This document shows, in pieces, positions 21,901 to 60,881 of a stretch of DNA of 64,000 nt. The notes under the pieces are model-generated. The model saw only the letters and a list, made by a program, of their open reading frames with translations. It made no database searches and was not told where the DNA came from. The stretch is from Owenia fusiformis (lineage: Eukaryota; Annelida; Polychaeta; Sabellida; Oweniidae). The translations under genes and the position numbers were made by a program. Numbering within the stretch: position 1 is the first letter of the stretch; each line of letters starts with the position of its first letter. The stretch covers positions 20,412,931 through 20,476,930 of the forward strand of contig CAIIXF020000003.1 in assembly GCA_903813345.2 (NCBI GenBank). The letters run 5' to 3'.

Positions 21901-23977
21901 TTTACTGACACATTTCTTGGTTATGTATAACATTATAAAATGAACTTGCAATGTACGAACTTGCAGCATTATGAACTTATAGCACATACATTTGCATAAG
22001 CTTGCCTCACATGTGAACTTGCAACACATGAACTTGCAATTCATGAACTTGCAGCATTATGAACTTACAGCACATACATTTGCATAAGCTTGCCTCACTT
22101 GTGAACTTGCAACATATGAACTTGCAATGCATGAACTTGCAGCATTATGAACTTACAGCACATACATTTGCATAAGCTTGCCTCACTTGTGAACTTGCAA
22201 CATATGAACTTGCAATGCATGAACTTGCAGCATTATGAACTTACAGAACATACATTTGCATAAGCTTGCCTCACTTGTGAACTTGCAACACATGAACTTG
22301 CAATTCATGAACTTGCAGCATTATGAACTCATAGTGTTGTGTTGTTTGAAATATTTTGCTGACTGGTAACACATAAAAAGAAAGTATTGTGATGTCAGAG
22401 TGTTGTATGGAAGGGGTTTGCAGGTCAGTTTGAGAAAGCATTGTGGAAAAAGGGGTTGGTGAGAGAAGGGAACACCCCACTCCATATGGACAATGCACCT
22501 GCCCACAGATCTCAAAATGTTCAGAAAACAATATCCCTGGACCTCAAAATTGAGCTCTTGGCCAATGCACCATATTGTTCAGATCTGCTCACATGTGACT
22601 TATTTATTACTATCCTACTTATTTCTATAGAGAAAGGATGCAGGTTTATTGACATTGATGAAATAAAACAACCCATGCAACTGCATCTTGCTACCATGTC
22701 AGAGAATGGATTCAGCTTTGTCTCAAAATATTGAGTTATGATGATGAGGAATTGTGTACATGTAGCACTTGATGGAACCTATGCAGAGGGCCATGTGGAA
22801 TGAATGTGGCATTATACCACAAAGTGACGATAAAATATTCAAAATCAACTATGGCATAACAAAATGGGTTAATTCATGACCATAATGGTTTGTTTTGTTC
22901 AGCCTGCATTCAACTACATTGCATGTTAAACAAGCTTAAATAGCTTCAGAATGTTTGACGTGATGTCAGTCCCGGGGTACCTATACATCCTTCACGGAAA
23001 TGAAGATATATCAAAATATATTACATGTTTTGTTTTCAAATCTTCAGAGTTGATAGGTAATTGAATGATGTATCACTGGTAAGAAAATCGAAGGGATTGG
23101 TCTATAAAAAGCATCTGTGTAAAAAGCGTCCATTACTTATTGATCACCCCTCGTAAGATACAAAGATCTGTATTTACACCAAACTGATTTTTTAAAGTTA
23201 TCAAACTTACGTGAATTCACCCTAGAAAGTATAGAGGTCAGCACTAGAATCTCAACCAGTGACGATACAAGGACACCTAAATAAAGAAAAAAACAATTCT
23301 TATTGGTTAAAACTGGAATCTGAGAAATAGGGCTGACACGTTGCAACAACGCTATTAACATGTAAAATGTCAACATCTGCCATTTGTTACAGATGCCGAC
23401 AGCAAACACCAATCACATGAATGCCAAACAAAATCCACAGAATAGTTCAAGACTGGTAAAAATTTAACTATATCTCTGAATGTAACCTTGGGAATGGGCA
23501 GAATCATACTTAAGTCGATAGGATACACATCAATATTATGATTAATATTGAATTCATTAATTAAACTTATTCACTGTATGTATCTTTATTGGCCTTTATA
23601 TGAAGGAGATACATGTATACAGGTTCATATATTGTTGAAATTAAATAAAACTAGAAAAAATCATTGTTTACATACAAACAAACCCTGTAGATCAATGTCA
23701 CACTGATGAAGTCAATGTAAAATGTACCTAACACTCACAACTTGCAGGATTTCAAAAGTTAAAGATACTGCTATATTTTGTATTAAAAGTTTATTTCTCA
23801 CAGAATACTGCCAGACAGATGAGCATTCATTCTCATATATGCTAATGAGAAATTAACAATGAGTCAGAACAGTTATACTTCAACGTTTATCACGACTTAT
23901 GAATTGTTTTCATTTATATTCACTAGAAATCACATAAATTCAATCAAATGATCTAAAGACCAAAACAAACCTTTCAT
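12964..23977 (-). CDS. CUB/LDLa single-pass transmembrane receptor, 14 exons
   Basis: Coding exons in transcript order: 23971-23977, 23211-23276, 21522-21765, 20973-21154, 20318-20499, 18964-19144, 18511-18540 (a 30-nt microexon), 17971-18126, 17481-17684, 16623-16739, 15875-16018, 15338-15520, 14396-14511, 12964-13992. All junctions are GT-AG and phases chain without a break, giving 946 aa. Start MKG, then a hydrophobic signal peptide. A degenerate CUB-like module (about 30-166) is followed by two CUB modules (about 167-288 with VTFDDWDLYSGSRIQIYDG, and 298-418), LDLa modules with Cys patterns at about 419-456 and 457-505, a helix near 523-545, an Arg-rich stop (RRRRRR) and a tail of about 390 aa with PPAY at 586-589 and 617-620. 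The PPxY motifs are Nedd4-type WW ligands in known proteins, so ubiquitin-controlled trafficking is inferred. It resembles LRP3/10/12 in content but not in domain order. No ligand can be assigned. Confidence 0.85.
13660..13840 (-). repeat. 15-nt coding repeat in receptor tail
   Basis: Within the last receptor exon a 15-nt period encodes degenerate pentapeptides of the type A-L-N-T-G (ALNTG, ASSIG, ALDRG, ASNVG, VLNAS, AVNTS). It lies in the cytoplasmic tail between the PPAY motifs and the C terminus. The resemblance to bacterial pentapeptide-repeat proteins is superficial. A Ser/Thr/Asn/Ala-rich disordered linker made by slippage is more likely. Confidence 0.75.
14588..14692. repeat. 21-bp tandem repeat, five perfect copies
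   Basis: AAGCTAAAATGCCTAAACAT plus C repeats five times without change, in the intron between receptor exons 15338-15520 and 14396-14511. Likely polymorphic in copy number. Confidence 0.95.
16089..16206. mobile_element. Copy of a dispersed ~120-bp family (GTCACCAC ends)
   Basis: It starts GTCACCACCTACC and ends near GTGGTTGTGAC. Internally it holds TTGTTACAGACGCTGACC and CCAAACACC. Related copies or fragments lie at 20765-20866, 23369-23457 (with its duplicate at +4971), 38416-38492 and 45505-45545. The complementary termini suggest a very short MITE. Three of the copies lie in introns of the receptor gene and one in an OXA1L intron. Confidence 0.65.
16351..16539. repeat. Short inverted repeat in receptor intron
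   Basis: 16351-16370 (ACTAGTCTCGGTTTAGAGAA) pairs with 16520-16539 with few mismatches, across an AT-rich loop of about 150 bp. Confidence 0.6.
16853..17225. mobile_element. MITE with TTAA flanks, copy A
   Basis: A 373-bp element flanked by TTAA on both sides (16849-16852, 17226-17229), with imperfect terminal inverted repeats (AGAGAAAATCAAATATAG and its partner near 17208-17225). A second copy with high similarity is at 55606-55972. TTAA duplication is typical of piggyBac-type transposition. It is inserted in a receptor intron. The 69-codon open frame inside is not a gene. Confidence 0.8.
19180..19751. mobile_element. MITE with TTAA flanks in receptor intron
   Basis: Flanked by TTAA at 19176-19179 and 19752-19755. 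The termini AGGGTGACGCATATCG and its counterpart (complement AGGGTTCCGATTAGC) are imperfect inverted repeats. It is 572 bp with no transposase. Piggybac-type by target site only. Confidence 0.6.
21935..22325. repeat. 88-bp tandem array, about 4.5 copies
   Basis: GCATAAGCTTGCCTCA recurs at 21994, 22082, 22170 and 22258 (period 88). Within each unit GAACTTGCA repeats several times. It is intronic in the receptor gene and is present again at about 26906-27296 in the second copy of the large duplication. Confidence 0.93.
22441..22737 (+). pseudogene. mariner/Tc1-type transposase remnant
   Basis: The plus-strand frame encodes LHMDNAPAHRSQ, followed about 20 residues on by ANAPYCSDLLTCDLF and a C-terminal LATMSENGF-like part. 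This is the second catalytic Asp region and the (altered) YSPDLAP block of a mariner-family transposase. The first half is missing, and a degraded KGFAGQFEKALWKK-like stretch precedes it. It lies antisense in a receptor intron. An identical copy is at 27412-27708. Confidence 0.75.
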
Positions 23978-24407
23978 TGTTGTATCATTCGTATCCTGTG
24001 GTTGACATCGTGAACAGTTGTAGAAATAAAGCAAATGTTATGCAAGTAATCCAGAAGTCATTTCAATATGGCGTTGTTAATTTGTAAGTGAACTTTAGAC
24101 CAGTGAGAGCTGCTATAGGATATGATGATTGTTTATGTGGATATTATGCATACATTGTACCCTTATCTCTAGGTCAGCCCTCGGCCCTGTCAAGTAGAGG
24201 TAAAGTTAAATATTAACTATTTTATAAATTAATTATACTAAGAAAATTAACCGTTAGTTGAGATATGTTAAGAGCAGTAAAACCTGTTATGGAACATTCC
24301 ACTCTCCATTCTGACCAAAATCATTCCTTGGAGACAGGTGTTCCTTCAAGGTTCATTAACAGTGACTTGCTTCTTTTGAAAACTGTTCTATACAGGAAGG
24401 TGTTCCT

Positions 24408-24898
24408 TATCCCATGCCAGGACTATAGTCCTGAACCGAGCGCAATCTTTTGCCTGTACTTACGACTTGAGAGAATTATCTACGCCCCTTACACGAAATA
24501 TACCTACTTCAATAGATTCCTTGGTATTATAGCATTCTTTTCGTGAAGAAATTTTCGTTTTTGATCGCAATATTTGCGAGTAATATTTAGCTTATTTCAA
24601 CTGTCAAATTCCTCCATTTATTGGTACTTCCGGGCCAGTCAAACGGGGAATCCCCTTTTAAATCCAACCCCCATCTTGAAAAGTGATGGAATCTCTCTCA
24701 ATGAAAAGAAAAATGTTCCCGTTCTTCCGATATACCCAGACAATTGTGGATTCAACTACACGAAAAGAATGCTAAAATACCAAGGAATCTATTGAAGTAG
24801 GTATCTTAAGTGTAAGGGGTGTAGATAATTCTCCCAAGTTGTAATTGTACAGGCAAAAGATTGCGCTTGGTCCAGGACTATAGTCCTGGCACGGGATA
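24408..24898. mobile_element. Fold-back MITE with 10-bp TSD (MULE-like), copy 1
   Basis: Left end TATCCCATGCCAGGACTATA; right end is its near-complement, with arms running more than 120 bp. It is flanked on both sides by AGGTGTTCCT (24398-24407, 24899-24908), a 10-bp target-site duplication. Long terminal inverted repeats with 9-11 bp duplications are typical of Mutator-like elements. It is 491 bp with no transposase. It interrupts an older CAGTAAAACCTG-type repeat that begins near 24279. Confidence 0.85.
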
Positions 24899-25265
24899 AG
24901 GTGTTCCTACCTATACAGATAGGTGTTTCATCAGACTATGTACAGTAAGATGCAGTAGTGAGGTCTCTAGGTCTCACACAAATATATGTACAATGTCCAT
25001 CTCCTTCATTCTCTCAAACATGGTAAATCCCCAGAGTACAGACATCTTGTTTATGCTGTTCATGACATCTCCATTAAGTCCAGCTTGAGGATTTGGGAAC
25101 TTCTTTATCTCCTCAATACCTTTGTTCATGGGATACCTTTCCTGCCACAAGATCAATCAGTCATTTACATATAAGTAGATTTATTTTGCTAAAATAAGCA
25201 ATCAAAGAACATGAAAGCAACATTACAGGGTGTCCCAAAATTTTTCCAAGACAAACATGGAATGA

Positions 25266-25692
25266 CTGATACATTCCTTAGTATTTTAGAATTCTTTTTA
25301 TGTTGTTAGATCGCCAATTGTATGGGTTTATCGGCAGAACGAAGAGATTTTTGTTTTTACATCGGAAATATATCAGCAATTTTCAAAATGTCGGAAGGGG
25401 AATTCCCCAGGGATTTCCCTTATGACTGGTGCATGCCGGGAACTGAATGGAGGAATTTGACGGTTGAAATAAGTTAAATATTACACGCAAATATTGCTAT
25501 CAAAAACGAAAACCTCTTCGTTCTGCCGATAAACCCACACAATTGGGCGATTCAACTACATAAAAAGAATTCTAAAAAACTAAGGAATGTATCGAGGTAG
25601 GTCATTTAGGTGTGCAATGTGTAGTATTTTCTCCAACTTTGTAAAAACATTGACTGACCAATTATATGCGCGTACGACCACAATCTAAAGTG
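25266..25692. mobile_element. Long-arm fold-back element, left end truncated, copy 1
   Basis: The arms pair around a centre near 25400 (GGAAGGGGAATTCCCC region). The left arm begins at GATACATTCCTTAG; the right arm continues further, to GACCACAATCTAAAG. A more complete copy is at 63037-63520 with its left outer end intact, and the identical tandem copy is at 30237-30663. Its inner arm sequence resembles that of the element at 24408-24898, so they may be one family. Confidence 0.75.
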
Positions 25693-25943
25693 GTCGTAGA
25701 ATTTGATAATAGTATCCCTACTCTGGACTTTATTCTTCAGGACAACTTACAGATAAGAATCATTGATAATTTCATTGATATATCCACGTTTTTCAGATTG
25801 CAGTGATCTTAATTGGACTATATCTGAAATCATATTCACTGTCAGATTGTGATTCACAGATTCAGTGACAGTTGGTGACACTGTGAGTCACTCAAAGTCA
25901 CGAAGAGGTGGTTACACTGGGAAGAGAACAGCCTAGCTCTTAC

Positions 25944-28900
25944 CTGTTGACAAAACCTGCATGAAAACATTTTTGTTGGGATCTGTCCTATAGTCATCAG
26001 ACATACAGAGAGTGATGCGAACATTGCTTGACTTGGATGTGTACTCTCTGGCTGTGTTGTTACCATGGTAATGTTGAATTGTCTGATCCCGGTAAAATTC
26101 GTCATATATTATCACATGGTTGCAACTGAAATATAGTTTCCAATGTGATGTTGATCTCTAAAATGCTATGTCTAATGGATTTATATTAATTTATTAATTC
26201 ATATTATTTCACCTTTTAAATGAATTCTATATTTCCGCGCGTTGTTGAAGTGACCTCTAACCATTTCCATTTAATTTGATTTAACAATAAAATATAAATT
26301 AATTAATTCACACCATTTCCTTATCATCATAGTATTCTTAATTATAACTTAAGATCCCTTATGATGGATTGCATACTGAGTTATTGGGCACTTCATAACA
26401 CCAAGAAATGAAGTAAAAGGGGGGTCTCATAGTGGTTGGGCGATTTTACAGTGAATACAGTATTTCAAATTGAACATGTTAGGATTACTTACCCAACCCT
26501 GCACTCATCCCCGGTTGGAATACTGGTGTAACAATCAGGTATATTAAGTTGTAGTATCCTCACAATGATCTTACAATTAAAGCAGCCCTTCACCAGGACT
26601 GAACATTCATAGACAAAATGGCCGTCTGTTGGTTTAGCGCCATCTATGTATGGTGGTGATGTAATATTGTGACGCTCATTTGGACCATAAATGTAAAGGT
26701 TTTTGTTTGTCTGTTCACAAATATCAAGTAGATATTCTGAAATGTCAGAAGTTGTGATTTTTATAAAAACATGGTCTAGTAGTCTAGTATTAGCAGTAGA
26801 TTACAATATTCCTATCCAATGAAAAATATATCCAATATGTATTCTAATAAAATGTAAAACAGTTAAAAATATTTACTGACACATTTCTTGGTTATGTATA
26901 ACATTATAAAATGAACTTGCAATGTACGAACTTGCAGCATTATGAACTTATAGCACATACATTTGCATAAGCTTGCCTCACATGTGAACTTGCAACACAT
27001 GAACTTGCAATTCATGAACTTGCAGCATTATGAACTTACAGCACATACATTTGCATAAGCTTGCCTCACTTGTGAACTTGCAACATATGAACTTGCAATG
27101 CATGAACTTGCAGCATTATGAACTTACAGCACATACATTTGCATAAGCTTGCCTCACTTGTGAACTTGCAACATATGAACTTGCAATGCATGAACTTGCA
27201 GCATTATGAACTTACAGAACATACATTTGCATAAGCTTGCCTCACTTGTGAACTTGCAACACATGAACTTGCAATTCATGAACTTGCAGCATTATGAACT
27301 CATAGTGTTGTGTTGTTTGAAATATTTTGCTGACTGGTAACACATAAAAAGAAAGTATTGTGATGTCAGAGTGTTGTATGGAAGGGGTTTGCAGGTCAGT
27401 TTGAGAAAGCATTGTGGAAAAAGGGGTTGGTGAGAGAAGGGAACACCCCACTCCATATGGACAATGCACCTGCCCACAGATCTCAAAATGTTCAGAAAAC
27501 AATATCCCTGGACCTCAAAATTGAGCTCTTGGCCAATGCACCATATTGTTCAGATCTGCTCACATGTGACTTATTTATTACTATCCTACTTATTTCTATA
27601 GAGAAAGGATGCAGGTTTATTGACATTGATGAAATAAAACAACCCATGCAACTGCATCTTGCTACCATGTCAGAGAATGGATTCAGCTTTGTCTCAAAAT
27701 ATTGAGTTATGATGATGAGGAATTGTGTACATGTAGCACTTGATGGAACCTATGCAGAGGGCCATGTGGAATGAATGTGGCATTATACCACAAAGTGACG
27801 ATAAAATATTCAAAATCAACTATGGCATAACAAAATGGGTTAATTCATGACCATAATGGTTTGTTTTGTTCAGCCTGCATTCAACTACATTGCATGTTAA
27901 ACAAGCTTAAATAGCTTCAGAATGTTTGACGTGATGTCAGTCCCGGGGTACCTATACATCCTTCACGGAAATGAAGATATATCAAAATATATTACATGTT
28001 TTGTTTTCAAATCTTCAGAGTTGATAGGTAATTGAATGATGTATCACTGGTAAGAAAATCGAAGGGATTGGTCTATAAAAAGCATCTGTGTAAAAAGCGT
28101 CCATTACTTATTGATCACCCCTCGTAAGATACAAAGATCTGTATTTACACCAAACTGATTTTTTAAAGTTATCAAACTTACGTGAATTCACCCTAGAAAG
28201 TATAGAGGTCAGCACTAGAATCTCAACCAGTGACGATACAAGGACACCTAAATAAAGAAAAAAACAATTCTTATTGGTTAAAACTGGAATCTGAGAAATA
28301 GGGCTGACACGTTGCAACAACGCTATTAACATGTAAAATGTCAACATCTGCCATTTGTTACAGATGCCGACAGCAAACACCAATCACATGAATGCCAAAC
28401 AAAATCCACAGAATAGTTCAAGACTGGTAAAAATTTAACTATATCTCTGAATGTAACCTTGGGAATGGGCAGAATCATACTTAAGTCGATAGGATACACA
28501 TCAATATTATGATTAATATTGAATTCATTAATTAAACTTATTCACTGTATGTATCTTTATTGGCCTTTATATGAAGGAGATACATGTATACAGGTTCATA
28601 TATTGTTGAAATTAAATAAAACTAGAAAAAATCATTGTTTACATACAAACAAACCCTGTAGATCAATGTCACACTGATGAAGTCAATGTAAAATGTACCT
28701 AACACTCACAACTTGCAGGATTTCAAAAGTTAAAGATACTGCTATATTTTGTATTAAAAGTTTATTTCTCACAGAATACTGCCAGACAGATGAGCATTCA
28801 TTCTCATATATGCTAATGAGAAATTAACAATGAGTCAGAACAGTTATACTTCAACGTTTATCACGACTTATGAATTGTTTTCATTTATATTCACTAGAAA

Positions 28901-28948
28901 TCACATAAATTCAATCAAATGATCTAAAGACCAAAACAAACCTTTCAT
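25944..28948 (-). pseudogene. Duplicated receptor exons 1-4 (partial gene copy)
   Basis: The exon equivalents are 28942-28948 (ATGAAAG), 28182-28247 (signal peptide), 26493-26736 and 25944-26125 (CUB-like module), each 4,971 bp from the exons of the full gene, with splice signals intact. No exons 5-14 follow before the full gene's own exon 1, so this copy alone would encode only a secreted fragment of about 166 aa plus intron read-through. Its last exon ends in phase 1 and the full gene's exons 2 and 3 begin in phase 1. A transcript from this copy could therefore splice on in frame and duplicate the N-terminal module. Whether it is real depends on the duplication being real. Confidence 0.7.
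27412..27708 (+). pseudogene. mariner/Tc1-type transposase remnant, second copy
   Basis: Identical to 22441-22737, carried along by the 4,971-bp duplication, and not an independent insertion. Confidence 0.75.
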
Positions 28949-29378
28949 TGTTGTATCATTCGTATCCTGTGGTTGACATCGTGAACAGTTGTAGAAATAA
29001 AGCAAATGTTATGCAAGTAATCCAGAAGTCATTTCAATATGGCGTTGTTAATTTGTAAGTGAACTTTAGACCAGTGAGAGCTGCTATAGGATATGATGAT
29101 TGTTTATGTGGATATTATGCATACATTGTACCCTTATCTCTAGGTCAGCCCTCGGCCCTGTCAAGTAGAGGTAAAGTTAAATATTAACTATTTTATAAAT
29201 TAATTATACTAAGAAAATTAACCGTTAGTTGAGATATGTTAAGAGCAGTAAAACCTGTTATGGAACATTCCACTCTCCATTCTGACCAAAATCATTCCTT
29301 GGAGACAGGTGTTCCTTCAAGGTTCATTAACAGTGACTTGCTTCTTTTGAAAACTGTTCTATACAGGAAGGTGTTCCT

Positions 29379-29869
29379 TATCCCATGCCAGGACTATAGT
29401 CCTGAACCGAGCGCAATCTTTTGCCTGTACTTACGACTTGAGAGAATTATCTACGCCCCTTACACGAAATATACCTACTTCAATAGATTCCTTGGTATTA
29501 TAGCATTCTTTTCGTGAAGAAATTTTCGTTTTTGATCGCAATATTTGCGAGTAATATTTAGCTTATTTCAACTGTCAAATTCCTCCATTTATTGGTACTT
29601 CCGGGCCAGTCAAACGGGGAATCCCCTTTTAAATCCAACCCCCATCTTGAAAAGTGATGGAATCTCTCTCAATGAAAAGAAAAATGTTCCCGTTCTTCCG
29701 ATATACCCAGACAATTGTGGATTCAACTACACGAAAAGAATGCTAAAATACCAAGGAATCTATTGAAGTAGGTATCTTAAGTGTAAGGGGTGTAGATAAT
29801 TCTCCCAAGTTGTAATTGTACAGGCAAAAGATTGCGCTTGGTCCAGGACTATAGTCCTGGCACGGGATA
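29379..29869. mobile_element. Fold-back MITE with 10-bp TSD, copy 2
   Basis: Duplicate of 24408-24898 through the large tandem duplication, with the same flanking AGGTGTTCCT. Confidence 0.85.
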
Positions 29870-30236
29870 AGGTGTTCCTACCTATACAGATAGGTGTTTC
29901 ATCAGACTATGTACAGTAAGATGCAGTAGTGAGGTCTCTAGGTCTCACACAAATATATGTACAATGTCCATCTCCTTCATTCTCTCAAACATGGTAAATC
30001 CCCAGAGTACAGACATCTTGTTTATGCTGTTCATGACATCTCCATTAAGTCCAGCTTGAGGATTTGGGAACTTCTTTATCTCCTCAATACCTTTGTTCAT
30101 GGGATACCTTTCCTGCCACAAGATCAATCAGTCATTTACATATAAGTAGATTTATTTTGCTAAAATAAGCAATCAAAGAACATGAAAGCAACATTACAGG
30201 GTGTCCCAAAATTTTTCCAAGACAAACATGGAATGA

Positions 30237-30663
30237 CTGATACATTCCTTAGTATTTTAGAATTCTTTTTATGTTGTTAGATCGCCAATTGTATGGGTTT
30301 ATCGGCAGAACGAAGAGATTTTTGTTTTTACATCGGAAATATATCAGCAATTTTCAAAATGTCGGAAGGGGAATTCCCCAGGGATTTCCCTTATGACTGG
30401 TGCATGCCGGGAACTGAATGGAGGAATTTGACGGTTGAAATAAGTTAAATATTACACGCAAATATTGCTATCAAAAACGAAAACCTCTTCGTTCTGCCGA
30501 TAAACCCACACAATTGGGCGATTCAACTACATAAAAAGAATTCTAAAAAACTAAGGAATGTATCGAGGTAGGTCATTTAGGTGTGCAATGTGTAGTATTT
30601 TCTCCAACTTTGTAAAAACATTGACTGACCAATTATATGCGCGTACGACCACAATCTAAAGTG
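30237..30663. mobile_element. Long-arm fold-back element, truncated, copy 2
   Basis: Duplicate of 25266-25692 through the large tandem duplication. Confidence 0.75.
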
Positions 30664-31130
30664 GTCGTAGAATTTGATAATAGTATCCCTACTCTGGACT
30701 TTATTCTTCAGGACAACTTACAGATAAGAATCATTGATAATTTCATTGATATATCCACGTTTTTCAGATTGCAGTGATCTTAATTGGACTATATCTGAAA
30801 TCATATTCACTGTCAGATTGTGATTCACAGATTCAGTGACAGTTGGTGACACTGTGAGTCACTCAAAGTCACGAAGAGGTGGATTATGAAATTGACAAAC
30901 AAAATCAAGTGAACAATTCGACAAGACCTTTATTTGGACCAACTGTGTAATTGTGGGATAATTAAAATATCATAATTGTAAGAAACGAAGATCCTACATT
31001 CCTTAATACTTTGCTGAGCTCCAACGTTCGATTTGATAACAAAATACAGTCGAAAGAGTCCAAAATCTTACCTTTTGTTTCGTGCAAAAAATAAATAAAT
31101 AAACGTCTTGTCCTTGACCTTTAATGCTCA

Positions 31131-36978: not shown

Positions 36979-39900
36979 TCATTTCCACTTAAATTCATCT
37001 TTAGTTTTTGAGCCCCTTGGTTTGGTTGGGTCATATTTATATGTCTTTGGCACGGCTCCTACACCTGCCTTTTTGAATTTCATTTCATTGAGTCTCTCTC
37101 TTTCCTTCATTTGCTGGTTGATCTTGGCATTTTCCCAGGCTGAAATACAAACAGAAAAAAATTAATTAATAATAATCAATTAAGAATTTAATTAAAAACT
37201 GATCATGAAAGATAGAGAATGAAAGAGGTCATTTTTGCTGATTTGGCAATTTTTTATTTGGTTAAGGCAGATTGGGAACTAGATTAGGCCTAAATGCCTT
37301 TAAATTTTGCTACTTCACTGCAATATTACTATTTTGATACAAATAGAAATTCATTCAATGATCATTATCTAATGCTAACAAGCTCCTGTTTCAGTCATCT
37401 AGGAGTCAACACTGTATGAAATACATATACACTACAGAATACCAGGAATTAGAACTGAAATTTTGTGACCATCCATTTTGAAAATTTTCAAAAGCTCATG
37501 AAAATGAGTAGCATGCAAATATTGACCAAGCAAGAGTACATTAACTAAACTACGATGTACTCACAATCTTTGAATCCTTTGATGAAAGGTTTCTTAGGTG
37601 CGAGTACTGCATTGTCATGTTTCACTAGCCTCTCAATGCCCAGCTTGTCCCGCAGACCTGGGATCTTCAACACACTAACTTGCACGAGTGAGAAAGTATT
37701 TGAGGTCAGCCAATAGCACAGCATAGCCTGAAATAAATAATATCCTGATAGCATCAACTTCATTACTTTTTATGAAAACAACAACAAAATACCAATTATT
37801 CATGAAATATATATAGCATCAGTTTATGCTTCAGTTTCATCAATCGTAAACGATCACTCCGATGGTGTTTTTTGAAATCTAACAGCACTATGTCTATTTT
37901 TTAAAGTTCTGGAAGACATCTCAAAAGTAATAAAAATATTGAAATTAGAATCCAAATATGACATCTCAATTAAATACTAAATATTTTTGCAAAAGCTTGA
38001 CTCTTTGGTCTTTGCACATCCAATCAAGAAATGCAATCAGAAAAATCACAGCATAATATTTTCTGATTAAAAGTACTGTGGATACACTTAATTTGGCTCC
38101 CAATTTAATTTGGCAGATTCAGAAAAACCGCCAAATTAAAAATCTGTCAAATTTCAGAAATTAAAACTTCTGGGGCCCCTTTTCCTGTCAACATGTCATA
38201 AATTCTACATTATTCCAAAAGAAATACAGAAAATGTCTTAGTAAATAGTAAAATAAATGTCTTAATGACATAAACATAGGCAAAAATTAAACTTCAGTCC
38301 TGAATTCGCCAAATTAAATAGCCGCCAATATTTGACATTGAGCAAATCTGTCAAATTAAGTAGCGTCAAAATAAGTGTATCTCCAGTTCCTGACATTCCA
38401 CATTCAAACTCCAAAATGATACCATCTGCCATTTGTTACATTTGATCACCAAACACCAACCGCCACAAACTGTGGTGGTGACATAATGATATTAATGTAT
38501 GAAAGATTCTTACAGCTGGAAAGTTGATCATAACAGGAACCATTATAATAGGGATACATCTGAACATCCACTTCATGTTAAAGCTTTGAGTGCTCAGCTT
38601 CATTCCACTGTCAACTCCCAACTGAAATAAACCAAACATTCATTAATTAAACTTCCAGTGCAATGTTTGGATTTGAAGTACCTCACAAGTTCACCAAGTT
38701 CTGCTATATACACAGTATGAAGGGAATAGAAACATTCAACATTCATTTTCTATTCTATCACACTCGATCAGAGTTAAAACCTCAAATCATCAATTTCCTT
38801 GAATAAATCTCAAATCTAAAAATTGGTATATAAAATTGTCCAAATAACAAAAATTGCCACAGGCAATGCGCTTATTTTTGAAGGAAAAAGGACAAAATAT
38901 TATTTGAGACATGTCACTCACACAGTCAATCAAATATGATAAAAACTTTAATTTGGGTCAATACTGAAGTGAAAAAAAAAATTACTCGCATAGAAAACAG
39001 CATTTGAAGTCCAGAGATCAAAAGAAGTGAATTACCACTTTTCACAAAGTGTATGTTTTTAAACTCTTGGACTAAAAGATGGCGCATGGTTGAAAATCCT
39101 ATCAAAAATGAATGGACAATTAATGCAAACAACAATGCCATCTTTCTATGGCATTGCTAAAAACTTGACATCTATAAATGGATAGATCAAAAATATTTTT
39201 TCATGATCTAGTGTCAACTCTGATGTGGTCTGTTTGAGCTGTTTTTGGTGTCAAATGAAAGATCAGGTACTTATTTATCCATTGGAAATACTATATGAAG
39301 ATCAAAAGTGACTTCATTTACACACTTTGTCCCTTTAATCTACAAAATCTCCATTTACAATCTCCACTGACCTACAAACCTGTATTGCATAGAAACACAT
39401 ATTTTGTTGACAACAAGTCTCATTTGTAACAGAGCAGGTAGGCATTTTGACAAAATACCTCTATTGTGACGAAGAATGAAAGTCTTGTGATAACATACCT
39501 CCATTGTGACAAGAAAGGTAAGCATTGTGACAACATACCTCTATTGTGACGAGGAAGGTAATTATTGTAACAACATACCTCTATTGTAACGAGGAAGGTA
39601 ATTATTGTAACAACATACCTCTATTGTAACGAGGAAGGTAATTATTGTAACAACATACCTCTATTGTAATGCGGAAGGTAATTATTGTAACAACATACCT
39701 CTATTGTAATGAGGAAGGTTATTATTGTAACAACATACCTCTATTGTAACGAGGAAGGTAATTATTGTAACAACATACCTCTATTGTAATGCGGAAGGTA
39801 ATTATTGTAACAACATACCTCTATTGTAATGAGGAAGGTTATTATTGTAACAACATACCTCTATTGTAACGAGGAAGGTAAGCATTGTGATAATAGGTAG

Positions 39901-42900
39901 GACGTAGAAGGGATCTGGTATGGAGAGATCAGTGAACCAGAACAATCCTCCAGTCTTCATACTCTCAATAGGCAGGTTAGCCATTGCCCTCAGCCCATAG
40001 AACACAGATATAAACACTGGCACCTGTAATCAGACATATAATCTCTCAATAGGCAGGTTAGCCATTGACTTCAGTCCATAGAACACAGATATAAACCCTG
40101 GCACCTGCAATCAGACATATTATCTCTAATAGGCAGGTTAGCCAGTGCCCTCAGCCCATAGAACACAGATATGAATACTGGCACCTGCAATCAGACATAT
40201 TATCTCTCAATAGGCAGGTTAGCCATTGCCCTCAGTCCATAGAACACAGATATAAACACTGGCACCTGCAACTAGACATATAGTCTCTCGTAAGCCAGGA
40301 ATGGCTGGGCATGCAGTCCTAGCTTTTTAAAAGAATTTTTAACATGTATATGTACAGACTTGCCAACCTCCCGTTTTTTTACGGGAATCTCCCGTAAATT
40401 TTTTGTATTTCCGTAAAAAATACCAAACTCCCGTACCGTTTTCTCCCGTAAAAACTCCCGTAAACTCCCGTACCGTATTTCTACTAAAATCTCCCGTAAT
40501 TTTTTTTAAGAATATGGTCGTAAAATCTCCCGTATTTTTGCTGAAATCTCCCGTATTCTGGTGTAACTCCCATAAAATCTCCCGTATTCTTGGTATAACT
40601 CCCGTAAAATCTCCCGTTTTCTGATATAACTCCCGTATTCTTGGTATAACTCTCGTAAAATCTCCGTTTTTTGCTGTCGAAATCTACCGTATTTAAAAGG
40701 AATTTGACAAATTTGTGACTTTGATTATTGCAGGCACGCTTCTTTCTTTTACTCCAAGAAGGTTGGCTCCCATGGTTCACTATCGATACTTTCATAAATA
40801 ACTTAAAAGTACTTCATTCCCATGATTCAAATTGCTTTTCTGCGATCAGTTCGGTATAAGTTTGCACACCAAATGTCCACAAATGGGGGCCAGTTCATAT
40901 TCTGTCATACTTCTGTCGGGAGAATACATTTTTTTTTTATATGGCGCTAAACAAAATATTGCCGCAATATAAGGCGCATTATGGGTAGGGACTGCTGTGA
41001 AATAATGAACGTAAGTGACATCTATCTTAGATAATAAGTTCTAATTAATTTATTAACTGCGCATGCGTCGTAATAATTTCAACCAATTAAATCGCTGGAT
41101 TTAATGCTCATAAATCTTCCGTAAAAACTCCCTTTTTTCAAAATCTAGAGTAAAAACTCTCGTTATTTCAGAGATCTACCGTAAAAACTCACGTTTTTTT
41201 CAAAAGTTACCGTAAAAACACCCATTTTTTTCAGAAACCTACCGTTAGAACTCCCGTTTTTTCAGAAATCTACCGAAAAAAATAACGTTTTTTCAGAAAT
41301 CTACCGTAAAAACTCCCATTTTTTCAAAATCTAAAGTAAAAACTCCCGTTTTTTCAAAATCTAAAGTAAAAACTCATGTTTTTTCAGAAATCTACCGTAA
41401 AAACTCCCGTTTTTTCAAAATCTACCGTAAAAACTCCCCGTTTTTCAGAAATCTACCGTAAAAACTCCCGTTTTTTCCGAAATCTACCGTAAAAGCTCCC
41501 GTTTTTTCAGAAATCTACCGTTAAAACTCCCGTTTTTTCAGAATCTACCGTAAAAACTCCCGTTTTTTCAGAAATCTACCGTAAAAACTCCCGTTTTTTC
41601 AGAAATCTACCGTAAAAACTCGCGTTTTTTCAGAAACCTACCGTAAAAACTCCCGTTTTTTCAGAAACCTACCGTAAAAACTCCCATTTTTTTTAAAATC
41701 TACCGCAAAAACTCCCGTTTTTTCAAAACCTACCGTAAAAACTCCCGTTTTTTCAGAACCTACCGCAAAAACTCCCGTTTTTTCTGCAATCTTCCGTAAA
41801 AAAGTCACGTTTTTTAAAATTTACCGCGAAAAATAGCTTTTTTAAAAAATCTCCCGTAAAAACTCCCGTTTTTTCAAAGTCTCCCGTAAAAACTCCTGTT
41901 TTTTTTCAATTTACCGCAAAAACTCCCGTTTTTTTTAAATCTCCCGTAAAAACTACTGTTTTTTTCAAAAATCTCGTGTAAAAACTCCCGGTTTTTATCA
42001 AAAAACTCCCGCAAAAACTACCGGATTTTGAAAAAAACTCCCGTAAAAGTACCGCAATTTTTTTAAAATCTCCCGTAAATTTTTCATTTTAGGTTGGCAA
42101 GTCTGATGTATGTGTGAGACGTTAACAAACTATTTTACTACTACATATAACATTACTAGTGTAAGGAGGTGTCACCGAACAAACAAAAGTCGGACCGGTT
42201 CGGTTTGGAACATTTGGCTTCAAAACGGAACAATTTTTTGAACGGTTCCGGAACAAAGTGAGTAGACGCGTGTCTATGTGTATTATACTCTAAGTTGCCC
42301 CATTTATTGTCGGACAAGATCTAGTCATTTGCAAAAAAATTACTTAATTTTGCGAGTTTATGAACAATAACTGGATATCTAGCTTGTGCATGAAATAAAA
42401 AATTTAATTTACGTGCCCTAGAAGTAGATCTCCAATTCGAACTGGGAAGAAAAACAAAAATAACAATAAATTCACCTTGAGCGCCTGTTATTAGGACCTC
42501 ACATCTTTGAAGGCACTCTGGTCCCGCTGAACCTAACCCCCGATCACAGGATTACCGCAATATTTCCAAACATGGTTTTTACTGTCCTTCGAAGAGTCTT
42601 CAATATATTGTTTCTCGGGTTTCAACTCATTTGACATTCTGAGTTTAGCCGCCACAATGATCATTGTTCCAACCCGAGAGCCTAGTTCCACGGAACGGGA
42701 CAAATTCGGGTATCCGTGACACCTCTAAACATTACATTGGTAGATACAAAGAATAGGAAAGAGTAGTTCCATATGATCAGTAGTCGAATTCTCCTGAATT
42801 GAAATCCCATATTAATTTCAGGTGCACATAACTTATTCCATACATGGTTTACAACTTTCAGTTTTGCACAAAGAGCGCTAAAATATACATGAATCTAGAA

Positions 42901-44945
42901 TGTTAGTTTTGAAGACTAAAATTCTAAAATTGATATGAGCTTGTCTATTGCACTGAATGGTATCATATAACATGAACTCACTTGTGCTAAAGGTACAAGG
43001 AAGTTTCTCATCACTTTCACGTCATTTCTTTTCATATATTCCACCATTTCATTGCCATACCGTGCAGCTGAAAGATAGAGACCAAACATTTGTACATAAA
43101 TAATATAAAATGCACATAACTTTCAGTTAAAATAGGATAAAAAGCCATCTTGGTACACTGGTAGATTAATGAAGATAAAAACTTGTCTTTTAGTTGTAGA
43201 AAATTATTCCACAAGGGACAGGAGACTTCTTTTAACTTATAAAGATCCTAGGCTTTTAGTTGCGAAAAATTATACTACAAGCGACAAGAGCCCTTTTTTA
43301 ACTTATACGACCCTGGTATTTTTAGTGAAAATGCCATGGCAAGTATCAATTGAACCTAATAAGGTCATCTCAGGTGCATTTTAACATGGAGTCAATGGAG
43401 GGAATCATTTGTTGAGGTAACCTACCATCCATAGCATTATTCTGTTGTCTAGCCTCAGTAAACTTTGCCTGTAGTCTCTGTATGGTTGGCATATGGTTGT
43501 GCATCTTGGCTGCATTCTTTTGTGACTTGATGACCAGTGGGAACATACAGCATCTTATGATCACTGTACCTGGAGTAGAAATAGTGAAACCTGTTTAAAT
43601 CCAATGCTGAATTGATACCTCTAAAATATGTTCCACTTGGGAGGTGTTCCACTCATAGAGGTTCATTTAACATTAAGTCAGTCTTGACACTCTGAAAAGT
43701 GTTCCGCTAACAGAGGTGTTCCACTTTAAAGGTTTCACTGTATAATCAAATTCAACTCTGGATGGAATACATGTACATGTTCCTTAGGGGAATAATCATC
43801 AAAATAGTCTCAACAATTCCTGACACCTTTTGGTGATTTTATAAAAAATTTGAGTATATTGGCTTGATGCCATTCTTTGTTACTATGTTAATGTTCATGA
43901 ACTATTCACTGGATGTCTATTTCTTTAAGGGGAGTGGGCCCATTAGAGTTTAGCCTGTACTAATGTTTTTGTCAACGTTTTCTTGTTTAAAGACATTAAA
44001 AGGCTATACATTTGTATGCTATGTTGTAAAAACATTAAATGTAAAAACTATAGTATCTTTGTATGAATTGGCCTTCCTAGATCTTATATTTTCATAAACC
44101 AATCGCCATTTTTTAAAAAATGTCAATGTATACTCAGCAATGCCAGAGTACACATTGGGATGCTAGAATCATCTGAATTAACATCTGTGGATGGAGCTCT
44201 CTTTTTAGGAAGTAACATCAAAATATTGAAAATGCAAAGGATAACATACCAACTGCTATGGCAGCAAACCAAGGCAGACCTCCAGATACATGTAACATCT
44301 CAAGACCAGACTGGACCAAGCCACTGGGCCAATAGCCCCCCAGTCCTAAACTGGTAAATGTTGGCTCACCGAGTGCATTAAGGACAGGTTCTATTGGCAG
44401 TACAGGTTCGGGAATTGGGGGAGGTTCTGGTATATAATCTGCAGGGGGTGGTAAGAAATCACCAGTTTTTGTAGCCTTGAAAATAGAAATAAAATCTGAA
44501 AATATCTAAAATCTAATTTGTATGAGTGATGTCCTGACACATAAAGTTTCTGTATCTCTTTTAAAATATTTAAAAAATTTACATGAACATTTAACATGGA
44601 AATGTGGTTTGGATCAAATGGGAATTCTAAATACAATATTTAATATAAAATCAAAATTTTAAATTAATTTCAATCACTAGTTTATAGGGGTTTAAATCTG
44701 TCTATGTTCCTTAAAATATTGCCCTTTGTGTTTTCATTCTGAGAACATACCTCTACTGTACTGTTTAACCTTGTTGATAATGGACCACATAACAGGTAGC
44801 CTTGTGTTGTTAACTTCTGCCTCTTCAGTAATAACCTAGAGTTAATACAGCCTACAGGTTTCTGATTTCTACAAACTGAACCAAGTCCTCTGATTCCGAG
44901 CTGTCGCAGCATCTTTCTAGTCCCAGGGTTACGCCAACTATTCAT
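36979..44945 (-). CDS. OXA1L: Mitochondrial inner-membrane insertase OXA1L
   Basis: OXA1L inserts mitochondrially and some nuclear-encoded proteins into the inner membrane. Coding exons in transcript order: 44751-44945, 44250-44475, 43426-43569, 42982-43067, 39859-40023, 38514-38621, 37565-37727, 36979-37139. All are GT-AG with continuous phase, giving 415 aa, close to the roughly 435 aa of vertebrate OXA1L. The first 65 aa are basic and Arg/Lys-rich, as for a mitochondrial presequence. Then LGLGGYWPSGLVQ, a first helix (GGLPWFAAIAV), RCCMFPLVIKSQ, NHMPTIQ, the conserved VFYGLRAMANLPIESMKTGG, and later helices with CYWLTSNTFSLVQV are diagnostic. The C terminus is Lys/Arg-rich (ribosome-binding tail in the family). 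The ATG at 44943-44945 lies 9 nt after a TTTTCCAG acceptor, so a 5' UTR exon upstream is likely. The exon at 39859-40023 is bordered by tandem copies of its own edges. Confidence 0.93.
38416..38492. mobile_element. Fragment of the GTCACCAC-ended small family
   Basis: Shares ATCTGCCATTTGTTACA and CACCAAACACCAAC with 16089-16206 and ends GTGGTGGTGAC. In an OXA1L intron. Confidence 0.55.
39450..39898 (-). repeat. 40-bp tandem array built from an OXA1L exon end plus donor
   Basis: About ten copies of a 40-bp unit end in the true 3' edge of the OXA1L exon 39859-40023. On the minus strand each unit reads TTACCTTCCTCGTTACAAT then AGAG and GTATGTTG, i.e. about 23 nt of coding sequence plus an intact GT donor. 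CAACATACCT (the donor on the plus strand) recurs at 40-bp spacing from about 39531 to 39851. A three-unit (120-bp) higher-order pattern is visible: 39661-39780 matches 39781-39900 almost to the end and so includes the genuine exon edge. Older, diverged copies lie at the far end (39450-39520). Confidence 0.93.
39967..40290 (-). repeat. 81-bp tandem copies of an OXA1L exon start plus acceptor
   Basis: The 5' part of the same OXA1L exon with its acceptor (true site at 40024) is repeated three more times upstream in the transcript, at about 81-bp spacing (GCAGGTTAGCCA at 39972, 40053, 40133 and 40214). Each decoy keeps about 60 nt of coding sequence (VPVFISVFYGL-like) and a CAG acceptor. The copies differ at several bases (for example GCCCTCAGCCC versus GACTTCAGTCC), so they are not an assembly echo. 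Confidence 0.93.
40355..42105. mobile_element. TIR element with internal CTCCCGTAAAAA satellite, 5-bp TSD
   Basis: The ends CAGACTTGCCAACCT and AGGTTGGCAAGTCTG are exact complements, flanked by ATGTA on both sides (40350-40354, 42106-42110). Nearly the whole 1.75-kb interior is a degenerate array of about 27-bp units such as ACTCCCGTTTTTTCAG with AAATCTACCGTAAAA. The left third has shorter units in a different register. It sits in an OXA1L intron. There is no transposase. The open frame of 103 codons on the minus strand is repeat translation. Confidence 0.85.
42165..42726. mobile_element. TIR element (GAGGTGTCAC ends)
   Basis: Left GAGGTGTCACCGAA and right TTCGGGTATCCGTGACACCTC are imperfect complements. 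About 560 bp, in the same OXA1L intron and only 60 bp from the element at 40355-42105. It is possibly hAT-like from the terminus style, but no convincing target-site duplication was found. Confidence 0.6.
43582..43740. mobile_element. Small TIR element (AGTGAAACCTG type)
   Basis: Ends TAGTGAAACCTG and AGGTTTCACTGTA with internal GTGTTCCACT-type motifs, about 160 bp. Related to 8491-8651. It lies just 13 bp upstream of an OXA1L exon acceptor (exon 43426-43569). Confidence 0.6.
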
Positions 44946-49059: not shown

Positions 49060-49187
49060 CTTTGATTCAGTGTAACTCAGTTGCATCAATCAGTCTCAGA
49101 GCCTGATTTCAGCTCAACTATTACTTTGATTCAATGTAACTCAGTTACATCAATCAGTGTCAGAGCCTGATTTCAGCTCAACTATTA
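49060..49187 (-). repeat. 64-bp tandem duplication across the SLC25A19 stop codon
   Basis: 49060-49123 and 49124-49187 are two copies of a 64-bp unit with a few differences (CAGTGT/CAATGT, TTGCATC/TTACATC, GTCTC/GTGTC). The upstream-in-transcript copy includes the last codons and stop of the carrier gene. The other copy repeats them in the 3' UTR. Confidence 0.9.
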
Positions 49188-50130
49188 AACTACAACATTG
49201 TTCATAGACGAAGAAGGATAGACCTGTTACAGCAGCAGCTTTTAATAGACTAGGACCTAGTCCTTTATATAGTCCTATCACACCCTCATCCTTGACGATG
49301 CATAGAACACAATGTATAAGTCCATTGTAACGTTTCACTCTGCCGAAAGATACCCTCGCTTCTTCAAACCCTTGGATCTGGAGTCTCTTTTTGACAACAT
49401 CGAGAGGATAGACGGCACCTTTACCAACTATTCCCGCTGCAGAACCACAAACAAGACTCTCTAACATTCCTGCGTAACGTGTATGATGGTGGCCATGCTC
49501 TTCCGCATAATGCTCCGCCATGTTCCAAATGTTCTTAAAGAGTGAGTAAAATCCAAACTGTAACCCTGCATAAGGAGCTGCCTGGACTAGGGTAGGAACC
49601 ATACCCTTAAAGAAGGTTAAAGTCCCTTCAGCTAGCATGCATCTTGCAGCATGTATAATTCCATTGTAGATTTTGGGTTCTCCTTGAGCAACGAGTCTTG
49701 TTCTTATGACATCAAATGGTTGACAAGCTACACTGGCGATACATCCTGACATACTGCCACACAGGAAGTGAGTGACTGGGCGGTATTCTTTAGACATCTT
49801 CTGAGGTAAATAATGCCATGCTTGTCTGGTTAGAAATTCAAACGAAGCAAAAGCAATCGGTCCATAGATCAGGGAAAAAGATTGAACAGCTACATGTCCC
49901 TTCCATAGAGACCAAAAGCCTTCCTCCCTGATGATCTTCCTAAATGATTGTCTCAAACCTTTATATTTCGATGTGGGGGTTTTAGCTATTGGTTCTGTTT
50001 GAAGTTGAAATCTTATTTTGATGACATCTAATGGTTGCGTCAGAGAGCGAGTAACAATACCACTTACACCTCCTGCTAATGCATGGTCAAATTTTGAAAG
50101 TTCGTATTTCAACGGATGGTATCCCACCAT
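49150..50130 (-). CDS. SLC25A19: Mitochondrial thiamine pyrophosphate carrier, intronless
   Basis: Mitochondrial carrier family, 326 aa. By family knowledge SLC25A19 exchanges cytosolic thiamine pyrophosphate across the inner membrane, feeding matrix dehydrogenases. Three repeats carry the signature PxDxxKxR-type motifs: QPLDVIKIRFQLQ (about 32-44), QPFDVIRTRLVAQGEPKIYN (about 137-156) and YPLDVVKKRLQIQGFE (about 244-259). The start MVGYHP matches the MVGYDP start of vertebrate SLC25A19. AQGEPK[IV]YN and GFE.AR..FG.V[KR]RY[KN]GL are specific to this branch, so the assignment is firm. No introns interrupt the coding part, unlike vertebrate orthologues. An acceptor-like GAACCAG lies 11 nt before the ATG, so a spliced 5' UTR exon is possible. 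Its 3' edge is duplicated (49060-49187). Confidence 0.93.
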   Translation of the reverse strand: MVGYHPLKYELSKFDHALAGGVSGIVTRSLTQPLDVIKIRFQLQTEPIAKTPTSKYKGLRQSFRKIIREEGFWSLWKGHVAVQSFSLIYGPIAFASFEFLTRQAWHYLPQKMSKEYRPVTHFLCGSMSGCIASVACQPFDVIRTRLVAQGEPKIYNGIIHAARCMLAEGTLTFFKGMVPTLVQAAPYAGLQFGFYSLFKNIWNMAEHYAEEHGHHHTRYAGMLESLVCGSAAGIVGKGAVYPLDVVKKRLQIQGFEEARVSFGRVKRYNGLIHCVLCIVKDEGVIGLYKGLGPSLLKAAAVTGLSFFVYEQCCSLIVELKSGSDTD

Positions 50131-50754
50131 GTTTTCTCTCTGGTTCTCTCAATTATGATATAATGCCAATAACAGTGTTCTCGAAGAGCAGACTAAATGC
50201 ACTACAGCTCAATATTTTGTATTTGTTAAGTCTTATTAATCCATACGACTGTTTTTCAGACACTTTTATTGTGCCATTTATATGTGTGTTAACTTTGATA
50301 TCACTTTTAAGTGTTTTAAGTACATCCATCTCATACACTGAACTTCACATTTTCAATGCATGTCTATGGTAGTGTTACTGTGACCTTGACCTCTACATAA
50401 TCTTGTACAATGTCCTCATGTGTACTGTGTTGTCCTTGGATCAAACCCAATATACATTTACAGTAGATTTTGTATTGATCTAGTTTTTGTACACAAGCTG
50501 CTATATTGATTTCTGAGCAGTGGCTCAGAAATCTGTATAAATGCATCTGCTTCCTATCTTATTTTTCTCTCAAAGTTATCTGCATCTTCCCTGAACATCA
50601 AATGTACACTGCTATTAAAGGCGTATATATTTATAACATGCTAGCTGGCTAAGAGTGGAGAGCTCTATATTGTATATAATGTAGAATGGTTGCAAAGTTG
50701 AAATCAATAAAATGTTCTGCCTGGTAAACATGTTTATAATTATTCTTTACTAGG
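50131..50754. other. Upstream flank of SLC25A19, no gene
   Basis: AT-rich with no repeat or gene recognised. It is likely promoter or 5' UTR intron of the carrier gene on the minus strand. Confidence 0.45.
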
Positions 50755-57930: not shown

Positions 57931-60881
57931 TATCACGGGATGTCATCGCCTGATTTGGTCAATGTTAGGGAGCAGGTCGTTTTTACAATAAATTTCAATA
58001 TTTTCACACAAAATATTTTTTTACTGAAAAACTGCTCATTCGCAGAGAAAATGTACTAGCACATGCAATGACAATGTCAATCACGCTTCTGTACGAAATT
58101 CGGCGGAAGTCTTTTATAATCTAATACGAAGTTACTAAAAAAGGCGCGAACGCCCTACACTCAAAATGATCGTTTTTCCATTATAACTTTTTAACGTAAT
58201 TTAACGAAGGCTTCTAATTATTATCCAAGATAGTCTAAATACCGATTAAAATATTTCTTACTTCAAACAGATACGCCGTCTTTTATTCAATTTTTTAAAA
58301 AATAATAAAAAATAACTCTTGTCAATGTTAGGGAGCAGTCAATGTTAGGGAGCAAAATGATTTTATCAGAATATTAAAAATGTAGCAAATGGCCATTTAA
58401 AATATGTATGGCATTTATAAACTAAACATTATTGTTTGAATGATTATTTTAAACCCCTTGCCTTAACAAAATTTAACAAAATCGATAAAAAAAATTGTTT
58501 TGCATTTTTGTTATCTTCAGAAAATGGACTCTCAAAGATTTTTGACGAAGGAAAGTTAATTATTATCATGGATAATCTCAGTACATATTGAAATATTTCT
58601 TACTTCAAACAGGTACACCTTTCTTTAATTTTTTTTAAATAATAAAAAATAAGTATGATCAATGTGGCGGAGCAAACAATGCAGTGGGGCGAAATGGTTT
58701 TATCAGAATATCAGAGTAATTGGCCTTTACAAACATGTATGTCATTTATAAACTAGACAAGATTGTATGATTGTTTTATACCCCTTGGTATAAACCTTAC
58801 AAGCATACAGTATTGCTCAGCACAATATACACAATTTAACCAGATACAATAATTACATGACATCTCCCTTTATTCATGATATTGTATTTAAATAAATGAG
58901 CTCATCTTTGTATATAAATTATTGTTTTGAAATAGACCGGTAACACTTAAAGAAAGTCTAAAACTTTGTCCAATCATATTTTAGAAATGTTAGAATAATA
59001 AAACGGACTTCATGGGGCAAAATCCCAAAAGGTCCCACTAGGTCCCACGCCATGTTAAGTCTATGGAGGTCCCAACTTGTCCCATTGGTGTATACCGGGC
59101 TTTAGAGTATCATTAGCAAGTGGTACACATATAACAGAGATCGGTTATATACTGCATTGTCTGAGTATTGACAAATTGAAGTATACGTGTAAAAATCTAC
59201 TATCATACATGTAACTGCGCAATGAGCCCTTCATAGCGTTTGTGCCAGCTATCAGGTGATACCCGGTCGTAAAGATAAGTGCGAGACTAACTCTCTTACT
59301 TTAATACTAGGAAAATATCAAATCATAGAACTGAAGGATGTCGGAGATTTCTCAAGCCTATATATCAGTTCAGATAATTTATCATCCACAATTTAGGATT
59401 GTGAACTGATGACATCATCAAAAAGTGTATATAACGATACATCCATTCATTTACAGTTAGAGGTCAACGAATAAAGAAGGAATGGTTCGCATCTAAATAT
59501 TTCTAAAACGAACGTAAACAGGATTTAGCTGAAAATAAAAAATGCAAAATAACCTTTTCAATGATTTTCTTACAATTTTAACGCTTTCCTCCCCAAAGGG
59601 TATCAAATAATCATACAAACAAAATTGTTCAGTTTATAAATGCCATACATATTTTAAATGGCCATTTGCTACATTTTTAATATTCTGATAAAATCATTTT
59701 GCTCCCTAACATTGACTGCTCCCTAACATTGACAAGAGTTATTTTTTATTATTTTTTAAAAAATTGAATAAAAGACGGCGTATCTGTTTGAAGTAAGAAA
59801 TATTTTAATCGGTATTTAGACTATCTTGGATAATAATTAGAAGCCTTCGTTAAATTACGTTAAAAAGTTATAATGGAAAAACGATCATTTTGAGTGTAGG
59901 GCGTTCGCGCCTTTTTTAGTAACTTCGTATTAGATTATAAAAGACTTCCGCCGAATTTCGTACAGAAGCGTGATTGACATTGTCATTGCATGTGCTAGTA
60001 CATTTTCTCTGCGAATGAGCAGTTTTTCAGTAAAAAAATATTTTGTGTGAAAATATTGAAATTTATTGTAAAAACGACCTGCTCCCTAACATTGACCAAA
60101 TCAGGCGATGACATCCCGTGATTATGAATATACTTTTCCATATATTATTGCACAATGGTTTCCCAATTTCTTATTTTTGCCATTCTACTGACGAAATGAA
60201 GCAGTGAAATGGACTCTTTATTGAACTGCACCCATTTTTTTGCCGCTGGCCATTCCAGATTACGTTATTGAACTTAGAAGTAGAGATCATGATTTGAGTT
60301 TACTGCATACTGACTGTGGAGAATACTGACTTCGCTGTCATGTTTGGCTGCACAAGCTGACATACCGGTAAGTACATCTGGGTTATATCATAACATTTCC
60401 TTAGTTTTAGATTTCGAACAACTCAATGACATTTTGACTCATACTTTAGCCTGAGAAGAGACATCTGATTTCTGATCTTGAATTTTTGAGTGATTTTCCT
60501 TGAGTGAAAACATGCAAGAATATATGTTAGCCTAACCGAGTGAAACTTTGAGAGAGTGGAAACTGATATATTTTATTTATAATTATTATAAACAAGAAGT
60601 GAGACTCACCTCAAATCCTCTATTTTGGCGTACAAATCCAGTGAAATTCGCATGCCGCAAAACGGAAGTCATTTTTCAAGGTCAATGTCTCGTCAAATGT
60701 TTTGATATTTCCCTCAAAAACAACTAGATATTTGTCAATTTGTATAGTTTTCTATATAGATTCGAGAAGAATAATGCAGGTTTGATATTTTCCCAGCATA
60801 ATATACATGATTTTATTGATTATTTACGTTGATAGTCATATCAAAGTTTTTTCTTCGAGACTAAGAAAACTAAAACAAAAA

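Follow-up and report, generated by a model that had tools for sequence, protein, structure and literature searches.

Tandem arrays of splice-site copies at both edges of one OXA1L exon in Owenia fusiformis, probably two edge-derived minisatellites

A Nucleic Acids Research (NAR) title of 1995 reportedly announces a minisatellite that supplies multiple splice donor sites in a human interferon-induced transcript (the gene is said to be 6-16/IFI6 and the first author Turri), an intronic variable number tandem repeat (VNTR) is said to affect the splicing of ABCA7 (PMC5954066), and intronic minisatellites of C. elegans have reportedly been linked to splicing decisions (PMC4039745). The closest described systems are two variants of the human CBS gene. 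In the accessible part of PMC2630376, the VNTR c.1444_1467+7(16_21) has a 31-bp unit that by its notation comprises 24 exonic and 7 intronic nucleotides, occurs in 16 to 21 copies with single substitutions between the units, and was found on control chromosomes. The same excerpt describes c.844_845ins68, a 68-bp duplication of the intron 7/exon 8 junction that presents two competing sites, the more distal of which is strongly favoured, with removal of the upstream exon 8 segment and a normal mRNA as the outcome (the sentence speaks of 'donor' sites for what is an acceptor junction, as in the title of the Romano 2002 article cited there). Traces of another transcript, in the nucleus only, are mentioned in the excerpted text of PMC1334203. 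Here we analyze a stretch of 64,000 nucleotides from the annelid Owenia fusiformis (GenBank assembly GCA_903813345.2, contig CAIIXF020000003.1, positions 20,412,931 to 20,476,930; hereafter the window, numbered from its first letter), in which exon 5 of the OXA1L gene is flanked on both sides by tandem copies of its own edges.

The array on the donor side of exon 5 is like the CBS VNTR in that its unit joins an exon end to an intron start and is present in many copies with substitutions between the units. It differs in that the CBS repeat varies in length between people and belongs to another gene, and the excerpt at hand mentions no acceptor array on that CBS exon. The array on the acceptor side resembles ins68, being a tandem repeat of intron end plus exon start, with a single 68-bp copy there versus three copies of about 81 bp here. 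As far as these excerpts describe it, human CBS holds both kinds of change, but on different exons, whereas OXA1L exon 5 has both edges affected. Judged by these cases, an exon-edge repeat with spare splice sites is a kind of structure already known from human genes, and the surprise voiced in the first-pass annotation, which had been made from the letters of this locus, appears overstated. Its inference that the cell must select one of about ten donors and four acceptors takes as real competitors decoys that are putative ones. It is uncommon, however, for a single exon to have an array at either edge.

The OXA1L coding region is located at 36979-44912 on the minus strand, as are all parts of the gene mentioned below. 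Its eight coding exons, whose borders were set by eye from splice signals and reading frame, join into 404 codons plus a stop with zero internal stops; the start codon at 44912 was our choice, a second in-frame ATG being present shortly upstream. Since the eight exons join into this open frame, the gene shows no sign of being a pseudogene, and it is predicted to be an intact gene for a mitochondrial protein. The homology searches covered exons 4-6, which when joined matched both human OXA1L (E 5.2e-28) and the Pfam domain PF02096 (60KD_IMP; E 5.7e-11, 43.1 bits with a cut-off of 35), as expected of the OXA1/YidC/Alb3 insertase family. Exon 5 (39859-40023; 165 nt, 55 codons) has exon 4 (42982-43067) as the upstream partner of its acceptors and exon 6 (38514-38621) as the downstream partner of its donors. 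No gap interrupts the alignment with human OXA1L at either inner junction of exon 5, which makes the inner edges those that the protein requires. The gene and the exon had been named in the first-pass annotation, and the human match together with the open joined frame bears both out.

The donor-side array was detected by Tandem Repeats Finder (TRF) at 39450-39888, with 11.0 copies of a 40-bp unit counting the true edge. Each unit consists of about 32 nt of the end of exon 5 and 8 nt of intron, and thus spans the exon boundary with a donor site inside it. The GT of the true donor is at 39858. Ten decoy donors that keep the GT follow within 39451-39818, one per 40 bp from 39818 to 39458, and the GT is lost in the copy at 39418. 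Eight of the decoys (39818, 39778, 39738, 39698, 39658, 39618, 39578 and 39538) read exactly GAG followed by GTATGTTG, so that nine donors, the true one included, share the same 11 nt; the decoys at 39498 and 39458 read GTATGTTA and GTATTTTG, respectively. The array had been noticed before with about nine donor copies, a count that we correct to ten with GT, nine of these with GTATGTT. Chance similarity is excluded, because the 40-mer of the exon edge matches nowhere else on either strand of the 64-kb window with up to 16 mismatches.

Compared with the exon unit, units 1-8 of this array show 3-5 changes in 40 positions, with 0-3 changes among themselves. Units 9, 10 and 11 show 5, 7 and 11 changes, respectively, against the exon unit and no fewer than 7 against the core units. 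The picture is that of a core whose units were homogenised and of a far end that has decayed. Because unit 9 and exon 5 share TCACAATGCTTACC, where the core units carry TTACAATAATTACC or TTACAATAATAACC, the form found in the exon seems to be ancestral and that of the core derived. Moreover, a 120-bp higher-order repeat extends over 39601-39881: the segment 39721-39881 is identical to 39601-39761 over 161 nt. This exact run, from 39881 to 39721, begins 23 nt inside exon 5, so that the 120-bp event took in the real exon end, as had been proposed from the sequence before; its direction could be either from exon to intron or the reverse.

The acceptor-side array was found by TRF at 39962-40289 (4.1 copies of an 81-bp unit) and consists of the 3' end of intron 4 joined to the 5' part of exon 5. 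Within 40024-40268 there are three decoy acceptors with intact AG, whose copies of the exon start lie at 40265, 40184 and 40104, and all of them read CAG/GTGCCAG (the slash marks the splice junction), as does the true exon start at 40023. The successive spacings are 81, 80 and 81, one copy having lost 1 bp, so that the earlier description of three 81-bp copies with intact CAG acceptors is right in the copies and their acceptors and wrong in giving 81 bp throughout; that the units on both sides contain splice sites and differ in length between the sides (40 bp versus 81/80 bp) agrees with it. The exon parts of the three copies show 1, 3 and 4 differences per 56 positions from the true exon. They look unconstrained, because two of the three carry nonsynonymous changes, one carries the 1-bp deletion, and stops follow each of them. 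At the boundary of the 81-bp unit, as read by eye, intronic CGAGAGACTATATG and exonic TTGAGAGTATG have GAGAG in common, which suggests that the first upstream duplication was microhomology-mediated.

Farther upstream in the same intron 4, an element at 40355-42105 is bounded by terminal inverted repeats of 15 bp that match perfectly (CAGACTTGCCAACCT), with ATGTA next to it on either side. It is made up mostly of repeats of about 31 bp containing TCTACCGTAAAAACTCCCGT and looks like a non-autonomous DNA transposon.

All pairs of the 4 acceptors and 11 donors were joined, giving 44 combinations. A full reading frame is obtained from one of them only, that of acceptor 40023 with donor 39858. The remaining 43 stop early, from 260 to 1012 nt upstream of the last exon junction, in agreement with the first-pass expectation that distal decoys would run into stops; the distal acceptors add 81, 161 or 242 nt. 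Under the 50-nt rule, stops this far upstream of the last junction are expected to trigger nonsense-mediated decay (NMD). A weak true acceptor was also considered as an explanation and was dropped, because a pyrimidine fraction of 0.56 is found alike at the true acceptor, at those of exons 6 and 7 and at one decoy, with 0.50 at the remaining two decoys.

The reading that we favour, with a probability of roughly 0.72, is that exon 5 carries two independent edge-derived minisatellites, which would be tolerated as splicing mostly uses the inner pair of sites. Two independent short tandem duplications would each have happened to span one edge of the exon, and both would then have grown into minisatellites within the flanking introns. 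The upstream duplication would have fused exonic TTGAGAG to intronic GAGAGACTATATG, with the 5-bp GAGAG in common, and downstream a donor-spanning block of about 40 bp would have been repeated and later re-expanded as a 120-bp block including the true exon end; we infer this order of events, as well as the main use of the inner sites. As every unit would bring its own edge, the copy that adjoins the unique exon body would still complete exon 5, and the inner acceptor 40023 and inner donor 39858 would restore a normal OXA1L, with decoy choices leading to premature stops and expected NMD substrates. The decoys would then lower output mildly, if at all, and the arrays would be neutral or slightly harmful, probably a by-product of local DNA duplication. 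It is consistent with this history that the outermost recognisable donor copies (10 and 11) are the most diverged. Also counted for the favoured reading were the intact frame, the conservation of exons 4-6 through the inner junctions, the single productive combination, the unconstrained look of the copied exon parts, the GAGAG at the upstream unit boundary and the richness of the window in tandem repeats. The normal splicing described for CBS ins68 in the excerpts cited above was also counted, by analogy, for use of the inner pair in OXA1L. For the choice among donors and acceptors we favour position, acting through exon definition, with some weak leakage to the decoys.

The repeat content of the window bears on how much of this could be accidental. 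In total, 25 merged TRF arrays cover 5343 bp. When these are placed at random, one or more of the 14 OXA1L splice edges is covered in 0.556 of the trials and two or more in 0.317, so that an array at one exon edge is unremarkable here. In a looser count of exons with both edges covered, in which a single long array may span the whole exon, the value was 0.2366. Additionally, a mitochondrial carrier gene on the minus strand (49150-50148; Pfam Mito_carr), which we take to be SLC25A19-like, has its last codons and its stop duplicated in tandem as 64 bp x 2 at 49060-49187, the second copy again reading VELKSGSETD plus a stop. This is a second gene-edge duplication in the window, and we counted it for a neutral origin of the exon 5 arrays.

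Several points weigh against the favoured reading. That the inner sites are the ones mainly used is a prediction from the sequence. Splice-site sequence cannot explain the choice of donor, because eight decoys match the true donor over its 11-nt context. Two different arrays, one per edge of the same exon, arose in 290 of 40000 random placements, in a test that was post hoc, considered six internal exons and did not require the unit to derive from the edge, and simple coincidence at both edges is not comfortable. Scans of many windows would turn up two-edge cases like that of exon 5.

A different reading would give the arrays a role. Decoy use could act as a splicing brake that produces NMD transcripts, with array length setting the amount of the OXA1L insertase, which we regard as unlikely. 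It draws on the early stops in 43 of 43 other combinations, 260 nt or more upstream of the last junction, on the GT kept by ten decoy donors and the AG kept by three decoy acceptors, and on the title of Lievers et al. 2001, which links the CBS 31-bp VNTR with reduced CBS activity. However, any intronic array would be expected to hold stops, and the copied exon parts look unconstrained. Slightly more doubtful is the form of this idea in which the brake is tunable by copy number, arrays at both edges diverting part of the OXA1L pre-mRNA to NMD and array length setting the insertase dose; recombination between the exon edge and any one unit would alter the length and leave the exon unharmed, because each intact unit is a working exon edge. 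If instead the folded RNA of the 40-bp array hid the decoy donors and left the true donor more exposed, the choice of the inner donor would follow from structure, which the folding models make improbable. The array is indeed more stable than dinucleotide shuffles (z -4.65, 0 of 100 as stable), yet the shuffles destroy its periodicity, so that this value overstates the effect. In mean per-base openness, the true donor comes first of 11 at W=150 (0.259) and W=240 (0.215) and third of 11 at W=80, and among the four acceptors the true one is likewise first at W=150 and W=240 and second at W=80; the whole donor 9-mer, however, is open with a probability of at most 0.001 in all 11 donors, the true one included. 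Among tiled controls, 98 of 300 units with three random changes and 52 of 300 shuffled units were as stable as core unit C, and 22 of 300 and 19 of 300, respectively, hid their donors as well as that unit does (not significant), on which grounds structural hiding of the decoys was not accepted. Core unit A keeps its donor open (0.310), and the acceptor array is ordinary (z -1.26, 10 of 100 shuffles as stable).

False multiplication of a single exon edge during assembly is suggested by a perfect, possibly false, 4971-bp head-to-tail duplication in the same window and by the exactness of the 120-bp offset repeat over 161 nt. It seems quite improbable to us, as the units are set apart by substitutions and one indel and those at the far end have decayed, unlike products of an assembler, and the two arrays differ in period; copy numbers rest on one assembled sequence and could by themselves still be wrong. 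We give even less credence to recursive splicing, in which the AG/GTATGT of every intact unit would let the true donor be spliced to a unit AG, regenerating a donor and removing the array stepwise. The AG does abut GTATGT, with CCTTCCTC upstream and a pyrimidine fraction of 0.75 at -20 to -5 (two units scored), but the acceptor would be GAG, whereas the seven mapped acceptors of the gene are CAG (6 of 7) or AAG (1 of 7), and a TAG two bases earlier would shift the frame. GAG is generally the least used acceptor trinucleotide. A recursive site joins a good acceptor to a following donor, and with GAG as acceptor the units were rejected as such sites despite their AG/GT.

On the favoured reading of two edge-derived minisatellites, exon 5 is an example of an exon edge spreading into the flanking introns with the reading frame unbroken. 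It also offers a natural splice-site competition, with 11 donors (nine identical over 11 nt), four near-identical acceptors and a single productive pair among 44, in which RNA of the species could reveal how splicing is decided by position together with exon definition and not by the strength of the sites.

Boundary repeats have also been connected with new introns. In the accessible passages, intron gain is ascribed to tandem repeats with splice-site-like sequence in fission yeast SPOG_01682/SOCG_00815 (PMC3629103) and to a duplicate crossing an intron-exon boundary in potato RdRp (PMC4974935); a new intron arose in these cases, whereas the outcome in OXA1L appears to be longer introns, with no additional intron seen within exon 5. 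For human segmental duplications, the available portion of a Genome Biol 2009 article (PMC2812944) reports minisatellites with, on average, 30-bp units repeated 4 times and states that those at exon-intron boundaries may form novel introns; they lie in genes of recent human paralogs and are not described in that portion as two-edge decoys of one exon. The CBS VNTR and the CBS insertion were also sought in PMC7277093, which does not mention them. Among the literature matches listed there was no published account of this OXA1L exon or of two-edge arrays, which is weak evidence of absence, the subscription literature being mostly outside the search. An exact 28-nt pattern gave 0 matches in viral_contigs, and an OXA1L fragment gave 11 pattern matches there, none confirmed as a relative.

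Other repeats were observed in the window. The head-to-tail duplication comprises 20938-25911 and 25909-30882, with exact identity over 4974 nt at an offset of 4971, and either arose very recently or was created falsely in the assembly. A 115-bp array at 1-1065 (9.3 copies, 94% matches) runs to the window start. An inverted pair of 17-bp x 2 repeats (GTCAATGTTAGGGAGCA) is located at 58321-58354 and 59700-59733, roughly 1.4 kb from each other, and the A+T-rich sequences flanking the two are complementary. Two 16/32-bp arrays at 6618-6789 and 7449-7620 are mutual reverse complements (GTCAACTCGACCC), as if lining both ends of one inverted-repeat element.

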